DNA from: Acidobacteriota bacterium
GTDB lineage: Bacteria > Acidobacteriota > Terriglobia > Terriglobales > Acidobacteriaceae
Length of the DNA stretch: 64,000 nucleotides
Direction: 5' to 3'
Assembly: GCA_021803035.1 (NCBI GenBank)
Contig: JAJZME010000074.1
Span: forward strand, 1-64,000
Part shown: positions 24,195 to 54,134 of the stretch, in pieces
How the letters are laid out: the number at the start of each line of letters is the position of its first letter
Position numbering within the stretch: the first letter of the stretch is position 1
The notes under the pieces: generated by a model
The model's database searches: none
Told to the model about the DNA's origin: nothing
Seen by the model: only the letters and a program-made list of their open reading frames with translations
Translations under genes and position numbers: made by a program

Positions 24195-24641
24195 GAGCGG
24201 AAGGCGGAGAAACCTTCCGTACTACATCCTGGCAGGCGGCCGCGCAGCAGGCCCTTGACGCGCGGCCATATCCGGAGCTAGGGTGGGCTTACACGGGAAA
24301 GGAGGTTGATCCAGCCAAATGCAAAGTGATTTATGCAGTTTCTTACGTGAGGTGACTGAGGCCTGAGGCCCTTGCGCCCCAGCCCCGGAAATCAACTCGG
24401 CGGAGGCTTCTCCGTCATGGCTCCGGTCGTCGCGGATGCGCGAGGGCCCCAGTCCAATCCCAACAGATCACCGGCGACGGCCTGAGAACACTCGTTCTCA
24501 GGCCGTTGTTGCCTAAGGAGATAGCGCGCAAGTGAAAGATCGGCGCGAAGGCTGTTCTTGCGGCTTTCAGCGCGCACGCTGCGGCGCGGCGCGAAAGCAG
24601 CGGCGGCAGCCTCCGCCGTATCCCACAGAAAAAGAGGCACA
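24195..24641 (+). other. 447-nt intergenic region holding an anti-16S-like motif and a terminator
   Basis: No convincing gene. AAAGGAGGTTGATCCAGCC at 24298-24316 is the complement of the conserved 16S rRNA 3' end apart from one extra T, in effect an extended Shine-Dalgarno. It is followed 13 nt after AGGAGG by an ATG opening a 15-codon ORF (24319-24366), too short and too far from the motif to call. A strong hairpin closes the region at 24477-24506. A small RNA ending at that hairpin is possible. Confidence 0.4.
24477..24510 (+). terminator. Strong 12-bp intrinsic-terminator-like hairpin
   Basis: ACGGCCTGAGAA (24477-24488) pairs perfectly with TTCTCAGGCCGT (24495-24506) around a CACTCG loop, followed by TGTT. 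It lies 283 nt after the lipoprotein stop and 135 nt before the MscS gene, so it would end a transcript from the left or a small RNA. Confidence 0.65.
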
Positions 24642-28813: not shown

Positions 28814-29689
28814 ATGAAGGGTATTCCTTTTACCCTCTTGCTCGTCCTGCTCGGCACACCAATTCCCGTCTTCGCTGCTGAGCAGCTTGTTCCCGCAGGT
28901 TCTCTCCTCCAGTGCTCGATGTCAGAACCTAAGTTTTCATCCAAAACCGCGGCCGTCGGAGATCCGGTGCTCTGCCAGCTTGGCATGACGGCACTGGATG
29001 GGCCGGCCATTCTGCCCTTTAACAGCTATCTCGAGGGACGGTTCCAGGCATACAAGAACCCCGGCCACTTTGTGGGCAAAGGCTGGCTGCAATTGAGCTT
29101 CGACCGCATGTTCATCGAACCGGACACGGTGATTCCTGTTCAGACAAAGATCGTTAATGTATCGGGTTTCAACATTAACCGGCAGGGCGAGATCCTGGGC
29201 CGCGGCCATGCCGTCCGCGACACGGTGGAATGGATGATTCCGATTTTGTGGCCGATTGACCTCGTCATGTTGCCCCGACGCGGCCCGCGGCCGACGCTGG
29301 GGTCGGAGACAGAAATTACGCTGAAGGTGATGAACGACTTTGCGCTTCCGATGACGCCGCGGCCACGCCGTGATCGCGCAGGCTTGTTGCGCCGTCCGGC
29401 GTCGTATTCCAATCGACGACCAGCCGCCGCGCCCGCCCAGCCCATTCAGCAATCTGATGTTCCGCCAGCGCAACAGAGCGTGATTGCGGCATCCGCGCCA
29501 GAGGCACCGCCCTATCCGGAAGAATCTTTCCGGCCGGCATATTATGCGCCGCCGCCAGAGTATTACTACCCACCACCATCGGAGTATTACTATCAGCCGC
29601 GGCCGCAGTACTACTATCCGCCGGCGTACTATCCGTATCCGGAGGGTCCGGGTTACGGCTCTCCGTACGGGCCCTGGAACGCGCCATAA
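28814..29689 (+). CDS. Secreted protein with a Tyr/Pro-rich C-terminal tail
   Basis: A 291-residue exported protein of unknown function. The ATG at 28814 is preferred over the in-frame GTG at 28811 because AGGAGG (28802-28807) is 6 nt from it. A signal peptide (MKGIPFTLLLVLLG, ending VFAAE) leads to a beta-rich domain of about 160 residues with LQCSMSEPKFSSKTAAVGDP and PFNSYLEGRF. A basic Arg/Pro linker (PRPRRDRAGLLRRP) follows. The last ~60 residues repeat EYYYPPP-like units rich in Tyr and Pro. Such tails are seen in envelope-associated low-complexity proteins, but no domain is recognised. It is flanked by gaps of 212 and 241 nt. Confidence 0.78.
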   Translation: MKGIPFTLLLVLLGTPIPVFAAEQLVPAGSLLQCSMSEPKFSSKTAAVGDPVLCQLGMTALDGPAILPFNSYLEGRFQAYKNPGHFVGKGWLQLSFDRMFIEPDTVIPVQTKIVNVSGFNINRQGEILGRGHAVRDTVEWMIPILWPIDLVMLPRRGPRPTLGSETEITLKVMNDFALPMTPRPRRDRAGLLRRPASYSNRRPAAAPAQPIQQSDVPPAQQSVIAASAPEAPPYPEESFRPAYYAPPPEYYYPPPSEYYYQPRPQYYYPPAYYPYPEGPGYGSPYGPWNAP

Positions 29690-29906
29690 GAACGCCGCGT
29701 GTGGCAGCAAGTTTTGCCCGCGTGAACCCGCAATGAGCAGCGATTGAGGTTGGTCACAGCGGGCGGAACACTGCTTTCCGCGGCAGATTGCGGGAGGGAT
29801 GAGCCGCCGCTGGCGGGCCCTCGGAAGCGCGCTCTGGAAGAGACGGGATTCCGGGCTGGATGACCCTGCCCGCAGCCTCCAGACTGATGCTCTTTGCGCT
29901 CCTCCT

Positions 29907-29928
29907 CCTGTACACTGGAGTGTACAGG
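29907..29928. promoter_or_regulatory. 22-bp perfect palindrome overlapping the asd promoter and ribosome-binding region
   Basis: CCTGTACACT (29907-29916) and AGTGTACAGG (29919-29928) are exact complements separated by GG. The repeat ends 2 nt before the asd ATG. It contains TACACT, a possible -10, and GGAG, a possible Shine-Dalgarno site. It could be an operator or an RNA hairpin that hides the ribosome-binding site. Confidence 0.6.
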
Positions 29929-29930
29929 TC

Positions 29931-31019
29931 ATGACAAAGAAATACCCCATTGGTATCCTCGGTGCGACCGGCATGGTCGGCCAGCGTTTCATCCAACTGC
30001 TTGAAAACCACCCGTGGTTTCAAATCACCTGGCTGGCGGCCAGCGACCGCTCCAGCGGCAAGCTTTATGGCGAAGCCGCCAAGTGGCGTCTCGATACGCC
30101 CCTGCCCGAACAGATCGCCGGCATGACTGTTTCGCCAGCCGATCCCGCCGGCGCGCCGAAGATCATCTTTGCCGCGCTTGATGCTGCCTTTGCCCGCGAG
30201 CTGGAGCCGAAGTTCGCCAACGCGGGCTGCGCCGTGGTGTCGAACTCCAGCGCCTACCGCATGGCGCCCAATGTGCCGCTGGTGATTCCCGAAATCAACG
30301 CCGCGCACCTGCACCTGATCGAGGAGCAGCCTTCGCGCCGCGAGTCGGGCGGTTACATGGTGACCAACCCCAACTGCTCCACCATTGGCCTGGTCATGGC
30401 GCTCAAGCCCATCGAAGAGCGCTTCGGCATCGAGCGGATTATGGTCACGACCATGCAGGCCGTCTCCGGCGCCGGCTACCCCGGCGTGCCTTCCATGGAC
30501 ATTCTGGGCAACGTGGTGCCCTACATCGGCAGCGAAGAAGAGAAGATGGAGGCGGAGACGCTGAAGCTGCTGGGCCGGCTGGAGGGTCATGCCGTCACGC
30601 CGCTTGCGGCGCGCATCAGCGCGCATTGCAACCGCGTCGCGGTGGAAGACGGCCACACCGAGAGCGTGTCAATCCAGCTTGGCAACAAGCTGGGGCGGCC
30701 GGTTACGCACGAAGACATTCTGGCCGCATGGGACGAGTTCCGGCCGCTGGCAGGTCAGGAGCTGCCTTCCGCGCCGGACCTGCCCGTTCAGTGGGCGCCG
30801 CAGCAAGACCGGCCGCAGCCGCGGCTGGACCGCAACCGCGGCAAGGGCATGGCCGTTACCGTGGGCCGGCTGCGTCCCTGCAACGTGCTGGACTGGAAGT
30901 TCACCGTCCTCTCGCACAACACCATTCGCGGAGCCGCCGGCGCCGCCATCCTGAACGCGGAACTGCTGGCCAGTTTGGGCAAGCTTGAACCTGTTGCCGC
31001 CACCGCGGCCGGCGCTTAA
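29931..31019 (+). CDS. asd: Aspartate-semialdehyde dehydrogenase
   Basis: Asd reduces aspartyl-4-phosphate to aspartate-4-semialdehyde with NADPH, the branch toward lysine/diaminopimelate, threonine and methionine. The 362-residue product starts MTKKYPIGILGATGMVGQRF with the nucleotide-binding GATGMVGQ. NPNCST holds the catalytic C149. QAVSGAGYPG and the substrate-binding HCNRVAVEDGHTESV region follow. Sequence and length fit the archaeal/fungal-type Asd rather than the E. coli type. It leads the asd-lysC-dapB cluster, with lysC 49 nt downstream. The palindrome over its start region suggests it is the control point of the cluster. Confidence 0.93.
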   Translation: MTKKYPIGILGATGMVGQRFIQLLENHPWFQITWLAASDRSSGKLYGEAAKWRLDTPLPEQIAGMTVSPADPAGAPKIIFAALDAAFARELEPKFANAGCAVVSNSSAYRMAPNVPLVIPEINAAHLHLIEEQPSRRESGGYMVTNPNCSTIGLVMALKPIEERFGIERIMVTTMQAVSGAGYPGVPSMDILGNVVPYIGSEEEKMEAETLKLLGRLEGHAVTPLAARISAHCNRVAVEDGHTESVSIQLGNKLGRPVTHEDILAAWDEFRPLAGQELPSAPDLPVQWAPQQDRPQPRLDRNRGKGMAVTVGRLRPCNVLDWKFTVLSHNTIRGAAGAAILNAELLASLGKLEPVAATAAGA

Positions 31020-31068: not shown

Positions 31069-32493
31069 ATGAATCTGGTGGTAATGAAGTTTGGCGGCAC
31101 GTCGGTTGAGGATGCGGCCGCCATTGACCGCACGGCTAAAATCGTGGCCGGCCGCGTGGCCGCCGGCAAGAGCCCGGTGGTGGTGGTCAGCGCCATGGCC
31201 AAGGTCACGGACCAGTTGCTGCGCGCCGCCGCGTCTGCCGCACAGGGCGACCGCACCGGAGCACTGGCCATCAGTTCGCGGCTGCGCTCGCGCCATCGCG
31301 ACACAACGGCGGAACTCGTCAAGAACCCGGCCGACTGCGCCGAGCTGACCACCTGGATCGATCAGAAGTTCGACTCGCTCGACGAGGTTTTGCGCGGGCT
31401 GGCGGCGATTCTGGAGCTCACGCCGCGCATCAGCGACCTGATCGTCAGCTACGGCGAGCGTCTTTCCAGCCGCATGGTGGCGGCCGCTTTTCGCGAGCGC
31501 GGCATTGACGCGGCGCATGTGGATGCGCGCCAGGTCATCATCACCGATTCGCAGTATCAAAAGGCTGTTCCCCAGGACCAGTTGATCGAAATCCGCGCCG
31601 CCGAAAAGCTGCGCCCACTGGCCGCCGAGGGTAAAGTGCCGGTGATGGGCGGCTTCATCGGCTCGAACGAGGCCGGCATCACCACCACCCTGGGCCGCGG
31701 CGGTTCCGACTTTACCGGCGCGCTGGTGGGCGGCGCGCTCGCGGCCGAAGCCATTGAAATCTGGACCGACGTCGACGGCATCATGACTACCGATCCGCGC
31801 GTCTGCCCCGATGCGCTGCGCGTTAAAGTCATCAGCTTTGAAGAGGCAGCCGAACTAGCCTACTTCGGCGCCAAGGTGCTGCACCCGGCCACCATCCTGC
31901 CGGCGGTCAAGAAGAACATCCCCGTGCTGGTGCTGAACAGCCGCAACGCAAGCTGCGAGGGCACGCGCATCATCTCGCTGGCGCCGCACTGCAAGAGCCC
32001 GTTCAAATCCATCGCCGTCAAGAAGAAGCTGAGCATCATCGACGTGGTGGCCAGCCGCATGCTGATGACGCACGGCTACCTGCGCCAGATCTTCGAGGTC
32101 TTCGACAAACACAAGTGCCCGGTGGACATGGTTTCCACCAGCGAAGTATCGGTCTCGCTCACCGTCGACTCCAACCAGCAACTTCCGGCCATCGCCGCCG
32201 ACCTGAGCACGCTCGCCGACGTGAAATACGAGGGCAAGAAGGCGCTGGTCTGTTTGGTGGGCGAAGATATTCGCGGGCAGAACGGTATCGCCGCGCAGGT
32301 TTTTGCGGCCATCCGGCACATCAACGTGCGCATGATCTCGCAGGGAGCAAGCGAGATCAACATGAGTTTCATGATCGAGGAAGACGACGCCGATGAAGCC
32401 GTGCGCTCGCTGCACGCGGCGTTCTTCAAGGATCCCGATCCGGCGATTTTTGACGTCGAAGCGAGAAAGCAGCTTTTAGCTTCCAGCTCCTAG
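31069..32493 (+). CDS. lysC: Aspartate kinase
   Basis: Aspartate kinase phosphorylates aspartate, the first step to lysine, threonine and methionine. The 474-residue product starts MNLVVMKFGGTSV, with the KFGGTS nucleotide site at 7-12. Then come SYGERLSSRMVAAAF, GFIGSNEAGITTTLGRGGSD and WTDVDGIMTTDPR, all typical. Two ACT regulatory domains form the C-terminus (SIIDVVASRMLMTHGYLRQI and KALVCLVGEDIRGQNGIAAQ regions), so lysine or threonine feedback is expected. No homoserine dehydrogenase is fused. An upstream in-frame ATG at 31042 is possible; the chosen start has GGGA about 8 nt upstream. A 143-nt repeat-bearing gap separates it from dapB. Confidence 0.95.
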   Translation: MNLVVMKFGGTSVEDAAAIDRTAKIVAGRVAAGKSPVVVVSAMAKVTDQLLRAAASAAQGDRTGALAISSRLRSRHRDTTAELVKNPADCAELTTWIDQKFDSLDEVLRGLAAILELTPRISDLIVSYGERLSSRMVAAAFRERGIDAAHVDARQVIITDSQYQKAVPQDQLIEIRAAEKLRPLAAEGKVPVMGGFIGSNEAGITTTLGRGGSDFTGALVGGALAAEAIEIWTDVDGIMTTDPRVCPDALRVKVISFEEAAELAYFGAKVLHPATILPAVKKNIPVLVLNSRNASCEGTRIISLAPHCKSPFKSIAVKKKLSIIDVVASRMLMTHGYLRQIFEVFDKHKCPVDMVSTSEVSVSLTVDSNQQLPAIAADLSTLADVKYEGKKALVCLVGEDIRGQNGIAAQVFAAIRHINVRMISQGASEINMSFMIEEDDADEAVRSLHAAFFKDPDPAIFDVEARKQLLASSS

Positions 32494-32636: not shown

Positions 32637-33314
32637 ATGCTGATTCTCATCCTTGGCCGGGGAAAGACCGGCAGCCTGGTGGCGCAGATTGCGCGGGAGC
32701 GCGGCCACGGCGTACGCACGCTCGACATCGACGAAAACCTGCACGCCTCGGCGCTGACCGCGCCCAGCCTGGCGGGCGTGGATGTGGTGGTGGACTTCAC
32801 CACTCCGGAGGCCGCGGTCGAGAACATGCGCGCCGTGCTCTCGGTGGGCGGGCACATGGTGGTGGGCACCACCGGCTGGTATGCGCATGTCGAAGAGATG
32901 AAGGCTCTGGCCATCAAGCGCGGCGGCGGGCTCCTCTACGGAACCAATTTTTCTCTCGGCGTGCAAAAGCTCTTCCGGCTGACGGCCGAGCTGGCCCGGC
33001 TCGAAGGCTATGCATTTTCCATCGACGAGACGCATCACACCTCCAAACTCGACGCGCCCTCGGGCACCGCGCTGACGCTGAAGGAGATCATTCAGTCGGT
33101 GCGTCCCGGCATTGAGGTTCCCATCGCGTCGCACCGCATCGGTGACGCCAAGGGCGAGCACGTCGTGACTGCCAGGAGCGATCACGACACGCTGGAGCTG
33201 CGCCACGACGCGCAGAGCCGCCGCGGCTTTGCCCTGGGCGCGGTGCGCGGCGCCGAATGGCTGGCCGGAAAATCGGGCGCCTGGGAGTTCCGCGAGATCT
33301 TCGACCAGATATAG
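32637..33314 (+). CDS. dapB: 4-hydroxy-tetrahydrodipicolinate reductase
   Basis: DapB reduces hydroxytetrahydrodipicolinate to tetrahydrodipicolinate for lysine and peptidoglycan diaminopimelate. The 225-residue product has an N-terminal Rossmann motif LILGRGKTGSLV, which differs from the usual GAxGRMG, then VVDFTTPEAA and GTTGW. The signature THHTSKLDAPSGTAL holds H133, H134 and K137. It is about 40-50 residues shorter than E. coli DapB, mostly in loops. The ribosome-binding AGGAG lies in a repeat 8 nt upstream. It belongs to the asd-lysC-dapB cluster and works with dapA, which follows after an opposing gene. Confidence 0.93.
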   Translation: MLILILGRGKTGSLVAQIARERGHGVRTLDIDENLHASALTAPSLAGVDVVVDFTTPEAAVENMRAVLSVGGHMVVGTTGWYAHVEEMKALAIKRGGGLLYGTNFSLGVQKLFRLTAELARLEGYAFSIDETHHTSKLDAPSGTALTLKEIIQSVRPGIEVPIASHRIGDAKGEHVVTARSDHDTLELRHDAQSRRGFALGAVRGAEWLAGKSGAWEFREIFDQI

Positions 33315-33329: not shown

Positions 33330-34097
33330 CTATTTGCTGGCCGACACTCTGTGCACCCTGGCCGGCAGCTTCAAAAATTGCGATGGAGGCAGAGCGCGCG
33401 GCGTCATGCGTGCCATCAGAATCGCACCCCGGAAATAGTATTTGTGGTTGATCCGCATTCCCACTGACGAACGGCCCGGAAGCTGCGCCTTGAGCGTCAG
33501 CGGCCCTTCGCCCTGCAACTGGCCGTCCACGTAATTGCGCAGTTCCTTGCCGTTATAAACAGCCGTCACCACATACCACCTGCCCAGCGGGTGCATCAGC
33601 TTGCAGTTCAGCAGCGTGCGGTGCTGCGTGCCCGATGCCGCAAAGCTGTCCAGGCACCACTGCCCGTTGATCACGCGAACCTCGAAGAGCATCCGGTTGG
33701 TGGTATCCATGCCGGTGACGGGATTTTGCTCCTGGAGGTCAAAGAACCGCTGTGCGAACGGCCCGCCGTCGGGCCGGAAGATCACTTCCCACGTATACGT
33801 CGAGGCTCCGGCCAGCGGATGCTCGGGGACAATCAGCCCGTCGTTGACGCCGTTGAACCAGACCGCCTTCCCATAGGGCGTTGCGATCACGCGCGGATGC
33901 CCGAAGACCTGCGTCTTCAGTCCGTCGATTTTGTGGATATTGTCGAAGCGCCAGATCCGGGTCTGCGGAACTGCGGCGGCGGCGCTTTCCGCCTTTGCCT
34001 TCCCGGCTTGTCCCGCCGCCGCCCGCACTCCGATCAGCAGCACGCAAGCCAACAACAACGCAATAGAACTGCGGCACTTCCGCTTCATCCGACGCAT
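33330..34097 (-). CDS. Secreted LamG/concanavalin-like domain protein
   Basis: A 255-residue exported protein. The signal peptide is basic (MRRMKRKCRSS) then hydrophobic (IALLLACVLLIGV). The mature part has the jelly-roll strand pattern of LamG-type lectin domains: VWFNGVNDGLIVPEHPLAG, YTWEVIFRPDGG, WYVVTAVYNGKELRNYVDGQ and VGMRINHKYYFRGAI. Such domains bind carbohydrates or act as adhesion modules, but none of the typical enzymatic partners is fused. It lies opposite to and between dapB and dapA, ending 15 nt from dapB, so it splits the diaminopimelate cluster. Confidence 0.78.
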   Translation of the reverse strand: MRRMKRKCRSSIALLLACVLLIGVRAAAGQAGKAKAESAAAAVPQTRIWRFDNIHKIDGLKTQVFGHPRVIATPYGKAVWFNGVNDGLIVPEHPLAGASTYTWEVIFRPDGGPFAQRFFDLQEQNPVTGMDTTNRMLFEVRVINGQWCLDSFAASGTQHRTLLNCKLMHPLGRWYVVTAVYNGKELRNYVDGQLQGEGPLTLKAQLPGRSSVGMRINHKYYFRGAILMARMTPRALPPSQFLKLPARVHRVSASK

Positions 34098-34226
34098 AGC
34101 TTCCTCCTGGGGCTTGGGTTCAATTTTCCATGCTACAGCAGGCGGCGGGCGCCCGAGCCTGGCGGCGCATATCTGTCTGGCGCTGGCGTGGGAAGGGATG
34201 CCTGGTTCGTTATAAACTCATCTGTT

Positions 34227-35153
34227 ATGGAAACGACAGGTTGCGGAACAGCGATCGTTACGCCATTCCGGGCGGACGGATCGATCGACGAGCCAGCGCT
34301 GTGGTCGCTGGCAAACTGGCAGGTCGAATCCGGCATCGACTTTCTGGTCGCGTGCGGATCCACGGGCGAAGCCGCCACGCTCGACGAGGAGGAATGGCTG
34401 CGCGCCGTGCGCATCGTGGTGGAGGCGGCCGCCGGCCGCGTGCCGGTATGGGCCGGCTGCACGCACAACTCCACACGCGCGCTGGTGCGCCAGGCAACCT
34501 TGCTGCGCAACATTCACGGCGTGGATGCCGTGCTTTCCGCCAATCCCTATTACAACAAGCCCACGCAGGAGGGCCAGTTCCAGCACTTCATGGCGCTGGC
34601 CAAGGCCGTCTATCCGTTGCCCGTCTGCGTTTACAACGTGCCCGGACGAACCGCCGCCAACCTTGAACCGGCCACGGTGCTGCGCCTGGCCACCGAGGCC
34701 CGTAACATCCAGGCCATCAAGGAGGCCAGCGGCAAGGTGACGCAGATTGCCGAGCTGGTGCACACGCTGCCGCGCGGCTTCAAAATCTTCTCGGGCGACG
34801 ACAACCTGGCGCTGGCCGCCATCGGCGTCGGCGCACACGGGCTCATCAGCGTGGCCTCCAATGAAGCTCCCGCCGAGGTCGGCCGCATGATCCGCGCCGC
34901 GCTGCTCAACGACTGGACGCAGGCCCGCGAGATCGAGCGCAAATATGCGCGGCTCTTCGAGGCCAACTTCTGGGAGTCGAATCCCGGCCCGGTGAAGACC
35001 GTGCTCAACCTGATGGGCAAATGCGCGGACCATGTGCGCCTGCCGCTGGTTCCTCCCGCGGCCGGCACACACGCCCGGCTGGAACGCCTGGCCGGCGAAC
35101 TGGGGCTGCTCAAATACGCTCCGTCGCCGGAAGGCGGCGTGGGGCTCTTCTAA
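34227..35153 (+). CDS. dapA: 4-hydroxy-tetrahydrodipicolinate synthase
   Basis: DapA condenses aspartate semialdehyde and pyruvate. The 308-residue TIM-barrel protein has GSTGEAATLDEEE, NPYYNKPTQEG, Y136 and R141 in VYNVPGRTAA and the Schiff-base K165 in IKEASGK. Later come IFSGDDNLALAAIGVGAHG and ESNPGPVKTVLNLMG. There is no Shine-Dalgarno site; TATAAA at 34211-34216 ends 10 nt before the ATG, consistent with its own promoter and a very short leader. It completes the asd-lysC-dapB-dapA set but is transcribed separately because a LamG-like gene lies between. Confidence 0.95.
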   Translation: METTGCGTAIVTPFRADGSIDEPALWSLANWQVESGIDFLVACGSTGEAATLDEEEWLRAVRIVVEAAAGRVPVWAGCTHNSTRALVRQATLLRNIHGVDAVLSANPYYNKPTQEGQFQHFMALAKAVYPLPVCVYNVPGRTAANLEPATVLRLATEARNIQAIKEASGKVTQIAELVHTLPRGFKIFSGDDNLALAAIGVGAHGLISVASNEAPAEVGRMIRAALLNDWTQAREIERKYARLFEANFWESNPGPVKTVLNLMGKCADHVRLPLVPPAAGTHARLERLAGELGLLKYAPSPEGGVGLF

Positions 35154-54099: not shown

Positions 54100-54134
54100 T
54101 GGCGTGGCCCATCCGTCAGGGATGGGCCACGCCA
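54100..54134. terminator. Long perfect hairpin between hicB and cspA
   Basis: GGCGTGGCCCATCC (54101-54114) pairs with GGATGGGCCACGCC (54120-54133) around GTCAG; one flanking T-A pair extends it to 15 bp. It starts 4 nt after the hicB stop. No U-run follows on either strand, so termination is likely but not certain. A second imperfect hairpin (54153-54176) lies between it and the cspA stop. Confidence 0.6.

Follow-up and report, generated by a model that had tools for sequence, protein, structure and literature searches.

A perfect palindrome before the asd start codon of an Acidobacteriaceae genome: most likely a coincidental overlay on a -10 promoter element

Does an exact 22-bp palindrome that ends just before the start codon of asd act as a control switch for diaminopimelate and lysine synthesis, or does it owe its symmetry to something else? 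The palindrome, CCTGTACACTGGAGTGTACAGG, lies at 29907-29928 of the window, by which we mean the whole 64,000-nucleotide (64-kb) stretch of DNA that was analysed, and consists of two 10-bp arms that are 100% complementary, CCTGTACACT (29907-29916) and AGTGTACAGG (29919-29928), around a GG centre. It is followed by TC and then by the ATG of asd at 29931, leaving a gap of 2 nt. The left arm contains the hexamer TACACT (29911-29916), and two Shine-Dalgarno-like strings are found inside the palindrome, GGAG at 29917-29920 (10 nt from the ATG) and AGG at 29926-29928. The sequence and position given for the palindrome in a preliminary description were exact, and the gene identities agree with its placement at the head of an asd-lysC-dapB cluster. 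These genes, all on the forward strand, are asd (aspartate-semialdehyde dehydrogenase, 29931-31019; NCBIfam NF006416 and TIGR00978, above cut-off), lysC (aspartate kinase, 31069-32493; NCBIfam NF006570, above cut-off when searched from 31072, the start being taken from the translation) and dapB (32637-33314; NCBIfam TIGR00036, above cut-off). Between dapB and the next gene in the order, dapA, the opposite strand carries an ORF (33330-34097) with a laminin-G-like domain (PF13385). As set out below, we consider it very probable that the functional feature is a -10 promoter element that gives the message a very short leader, and that the exact palindrome is incidental to it.

The palindrome as such is within chance for a 64-kb window, because shuffled windows yield such palindromes often. 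Inverted repeats whose arms reach 10 bp or more and whose loop is no longer than 2 nt were present in 24 of 60 dinucleotide shuffles of the window (a mean of 0.48 per shuffle), and with loops of up to 8 nt the mean over 60 shuffles was 1.2. Under these wider limits (arms of 10 bp or more, loops of up to 8 nt), the window contains four further inverted repeats, with arms of 11, 10, 13 and 15 bp. Perfect inverted repeats at 24477-24506 and 54100-54134, with 13- and 15-bp arms, respectively, exceed the reported palindrome in arm length. Only the place of the palindrome is notable: a palindrome placed directly at a start codon would be expected less often than the shuffle counts indicate, but this was counted post hoc.

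Two collections of asd upstream regions of relatives were used, one covering 35 genomes of the genus and the other 80 named loci, which were the best 80 of 164 and come from Acidobacteriaceae, including Terracidiphilus gabretensis and Occallatibacter savannae; some genomes are present in both collections, and for two asd loci from other families (L040 and L048) no protein anchor was obtained. Among the 35 genus loci, 27 have TGTACACT near the ATG, three have AGTACACT, two TGTAAACT and one TGTAAAAT, and in two the string is displaced; all variants, which include TAAACT and TAAAAT, retain TAnAnT. When the 80 named loci were compared together with the window's own region, the left arm was kept as [TA]GTACACT in 58 of the 81 regions. 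Fifty-three of the 81 match the selection pattern beside the start (51 with TGTACACT, two with AGTACACT), and in these the 14-nt core TCCTGTACACTGGA (29906-29919, forward strand) is nearly fixed. It is important to note that the conservation of the pattern columns is partly built in: to enter the table of 53 rows, a region had to carry, 20-45 nt from the protein anchor, a string agreeing with a selection pattern in which [TA]GTA[CA]A[CA]T is largely fixed; core columns -4 to -1 and 8 to 10 lie outside that pattern. The columns of GGAG have G in 46, G in 41, A in 50 and G in 32 of the 53 regions. None of the columns from -35 to -20 exceeds 0.32 bits in this table. The asd start codon takes the same position in these relatives; the hexamer ends 14 nt before the ATG in the window, 14-17 nt before it in 48 of the 53 regions (mostly 15 nt) and 9 nt before it in five.

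In four of the 58 regions that keep the left arm (L081, L093, L099 and L134), it sits over 100 nt upstream of the asd start (141-157 nt ahead of the protein anchor), and in two of these four the right arm is missing. The displaced left arm is followed by GGAGTGTTCAGAG in L081 and L093, while L099 and L134 keep CTCCTGTACACT and continue with AGAAAGAAAAAG and ATTTAGAAACAAG, respectively, so that the right arm is absent. In L130 the left arm is present and the start codon is farther from the anchor. TACACT is present in nine of the remaining 23 regions, set in other flanks (for example TTTACACTATCG) at 83-171 nt before the anchor, and the other 14 have TATAAA, TAAAAT or TAAACT within 220 nt, which is a weak criterion. 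Seven of those 14 carry TATAAAAT close before the ATG, and some of the seven have (A/G)TTCA near the ATG afterwards, like the genus; that string therefore needs no left-arm partner. Retention of the left arm far from the start codon, and in genomes that lack the right arm, is what a promoter would show, and the preliminary description of TACACT as -10-like is borne out by the retention of the hexamer at asd in the genus and, in other flanks, in the nine further relatives.

We propose that the conserved element is a -10 promoter of the form TCC-TG-TACACT-GGA, without a conserved -35, situated 14 nt before the asd start codon. The RNA would start approximately 7-10 nt downstream of the hexamer, around 29923-29926, giving a leader of about 5-8 nt and an asd message that would be nearly leaderless, with translation presumably starting without a classical Shine-Dalgarno site. 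Recognition would be by a sigma factor, probably with no dedicated regulator. GGA beside the -10 box would have a discriminator role, and the right arm would comprise discriminator, start-site and leader sequence that happens to mirror the left arm in this genome. By its position and column counts, GGAG (forward strand) probably serves as discriminator-like bases adjoining the -10 rather than as a working Shine-Dalgarno site. The earlier suggestion that the palindrome contains the Shine-Dalgarno site is doubtful, both because GGAG adjoins the -10 and lies upstream of the expected RNA start, and because just 9 nt separate hexamer and ATG in the five relatives mentioned above. A consensus promoter scan found no promoter at the palindrome, its one hit starting at 29931. 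We nonetheless read TACACT as a -10 because its variants, its displaced copies and its recurrence before dapA and nadK all fit a promoter. At the level of sequence comparison, the analysis shows which bases are kept, that the left arm also occurs far from the start and with no right arm beside it, and that the hexamer recurs at these two genes.

That recurrence was scored in 20 dapA and 21 nadK loci of the genus, from 30 loci found for each, this genome being counted within both sets; the choice of hexamer favours TA-N-A-N-T at 5-20 nt before the start. TAnACT ends 7-9 nt before the ATG in 19 of the 20 dapA loci (TACACT in 10, TAAACT in eight, TAGACT in one) and in 16 of the 21 nadK loci (TACACT in 14, TAAACT in two). 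No anchor was obtained for dapA L235 and nadK L203, no start for nadK L192 and L206, and no hexamer for L190 and L199, although nadK L190 was scored from a wrong start and TACACT is in fact present there. The dapA gene of the same cluster has its own TATAAACT (34211-34229) ending 8 nt before the ATG at 34227, and, judged from its sequence, is likely a leaderless gene. At L266 (G000 contig 82, 63478-63494), the nadK hexamer TACACT ends 8 nt before the ATG (TACACTGGGACCGCATG) and is kept in the genus. The 14-nt spacing of asd exceeds the 7-9 nt of dapA and nadK, which counts against the short-leader reading.

A class of genes of this type has been described. In a survey, TA-led genes were reported in three of three Acidobacteria genomes, at 9.7-19.4%, with a TANNNT -10 box whose first T lies about 12 bp from the start codon (Zheng et al. 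2011, PMC3160421), and experiments in Deinococcus are reported to show that such a motif acts as a -10 region (PMC12340547). The asd gene resembles TA-led or leaderless genes in having TANNNT near the start and no conserved -35, an arrangement kept in relatives, and dapA and nadK of the genus fit the class well. The asd hexamer differs in that its first T lies 20 nt from the ATG, versus about 10-12 bp in the class; the shorter spacing is seen in five of the 53 relatives. Because the spacing in this genome exceeds that of the class, asd is filed as a short-leader relative of the TA-led class and not as a strict member. Short-leader or leaderless messages are thus suggested for asd, dapA and nadK in Acidobacteriaceae, and such short leaders bear on gene-start annotation and on the expression mode of these genes.

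Within the genome, TACACT placed 7-9 nt before an ATG gave 21 matches versus 15 for the reversed control, and at 13-16 nt before an ATG 28 matches versus 24, so the latter arrangement is not enriched genome-wide. Coding-like frames (at least 100 codons with third-position G+C bias) are opened in 14 of the 21 and in four of the 28 matches, respectively, asd being among the four; the 14 were counted under the same rule, and one match (L258, which is L291) is in both sets. Several of the N-termini at the shorter distance resemble by eye alaS, leuS, dnaB and rdgB. TACACT close to an ATG therefore appears to be a genuine start signal in this genome, with asd having the longer distance. Before 367 roughly called genes, TACACT occurs four times at -24 to -11, twice at -60 to -25 and once at -130 to -61, counts that go in the right direction but are few, one of the four being asd itself. 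Shine-Dalgarno-like strings dominate in 175 sampled genes, and since most of them carry such strings, the asd type of start belongs to a minority.

Conservation of the 14-base core is tighter than a -10 box calls for, and this remains odd. It is conceivable, though improbable, that the core is more than a -10 box, and that a regulator or an RNA polymerase accessory factor reads one or both halves and thereby sets the supply of diaminopimelate and lysine; we give this some room because the genome has no other copy of TCCTGTACACTGGA at 0 or 1 mismatch and because the core is kept genus-wide even where it is displaced. The core has 16 further places in the genome, all at 2 mismatches, versus three for the reversed control. 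A regulon of such sites was rejected; each of the 16 falls within a frame, on one strand or the other, that runs for 150 codons or more without a stop, and frames of this kind are common in such DNA. Four of the 16 (L151, L152, L159 and L162), each followed 20-33 nt later by an ATG with an open frame of 140 to 489 codons, may be promoters. The arm CCTGTACACT occurs at two further places: at L053 (about 1502-1511) it is followed after 43-46 nt by an ATG with about 485 open codons and may be another promoter of the asd type, and at L050 there is no start of the searched kind within 150 nt.

Palindromic repressor operators that overlap promoters are a well-known kind of control site, and the exact dyad over the -10 region of asd occupies the classical operator position. 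A dimeric repressor of the diaminopimelate/lysine pathway binding there would block RNA polymerase; the left half would be doubly constrained, as promoter and as operator, and the right half degenerate. Along the right arm, the symmetric base was found in the 53 regions as follows: A in 50, G in 32, T in 33, G in 48, T in 46, A in three, C in 29, A in 44, G in 15 and G in 34. At the sixth of these positions, which needs A for symmetry, 41 of the 53 have T. With the 2-nt spacer, all 10 bases match in a single region, the window's own, nine match in six regions, eight in five, seven in 16, six in 13 and fewer in 12; nine or 10 match at some spacer of 0-6 in eight of the 53. Independent columns would be expected to give 0.07 exact palindromes in 53 regions, and one was seen, in the case chosen for it. 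L103 and L104 also have GTGTACAGG as the right half, and L020 nearly so, but in L099 and L134 the right arm is absent, as described above. Compensation was examined in 64 regions (66 distinct regions less two without a left arm near the ATG) at the 2-nt spacer: none of eight changes within the left-arm TGTACACT had its pairing restored on the right. Changes at the two outer C bases were matched in six of 10 cases, but nine of the 10 fall at the second C, and in the column that pairs with it A is the most frequent base anyway.

In the operator's favor, the mean left-right complementarity in the 53 regions was 7.0, versus 4.7 for permuted left arms, and only two of 3000 permutations reached the observed value over spacers 0-6 (none of 3000 at spacer 2), a result to which we give limited weight because the rows are related by descent and symmetry was the reason for choosing the site. 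It is owing to this result that the operator keeps a place among the alternatives, albeit as a distinctly improbable one. The permutation control points one way and the orthologous promoters the other, in that dyad symmetry is not kept among them. Regions differ by a few bases in their distance to the ATG, implying halves without fixed spacing. No second copy of the palindrome occurs in the genome at up to 3 mismatches, nor any other pair of TGTACACT and AGTGTWCA with a spacer of 0-6, although a single-target repressor would not need one. The preliminary description had proposed the palindrome as a control site and staked this on a second genomic site and on conservation upstream of asd orthologues; the genome yielded no second site, while the left half did prove to be conserved upstream of asd in relatives. 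With no second site, a right arm that drifts and none of the eight changes compensated, the control-site proposal is not sustained. Exact symmetry is confined to this genome among those compared, comparison of the relatives' sequences shows the right arm to be dispensable, and the perfect symmetry is most likely a coincidence and not a control switch. An eye-catching perfect palindrome at a promoter can thus arise by chance on top of an ordinary -10 element.

It is very improbable that the conserved bases form something other than a promoter, such as an activator half site or a site for an unusual sigma factor, and that transcription really begins elsewhere. The 14-nt core is indeed kept more strictly than TANNNT predicts and lacks another copy within 1 mismatch in the genome, but the TAAACT and TAAAAT variants and the TATAAAAT replacement in distant relatives fit a -10 box, and the same hexamer precedes dapA and nadK. 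An RNA hairpin, in which the transcribed palindrome would fold over the ribosome-binding site and control asd translation, is likewise very improbable. A 9-bp stem with a UGGA loop is predicted (-16.8 kcal/mol for 61 nt), with a folding z of -2.03 and 10 of 200 shuffles folding as well. However, if TACACT is the -10, the left arm would be untranscribed from this promoter; moreover, the pairing is not kept in relatives, the changes within TGTACACT being uncompensated as noted, and the window has no Rfam family at gathering score. Operator and hairpin were both rejected as the main reading, though the permutation and folding results lean their way, and the earlier view that a protein or RNA-hairpin mechanism is the more likely is not supported. 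A lysine riboswitch, which would control the same pathway, was rejected: the window has no Rfam riboswitch match at gathering score, in line with the preliminary description, and a search of 29500-30100 under permissive settings returned a single irrelevant match at chance level (E 8.6).

Lastly, about 100 nt separate the asd promoter from the asd start in L081 and L093. This stretch has AGCATTTCTCGAA at one edge and, at the other, its inverted counterpart (TTCGAGAAATGCT in L081, a poorer match in L093), and looks like a small mobile or repeat element.
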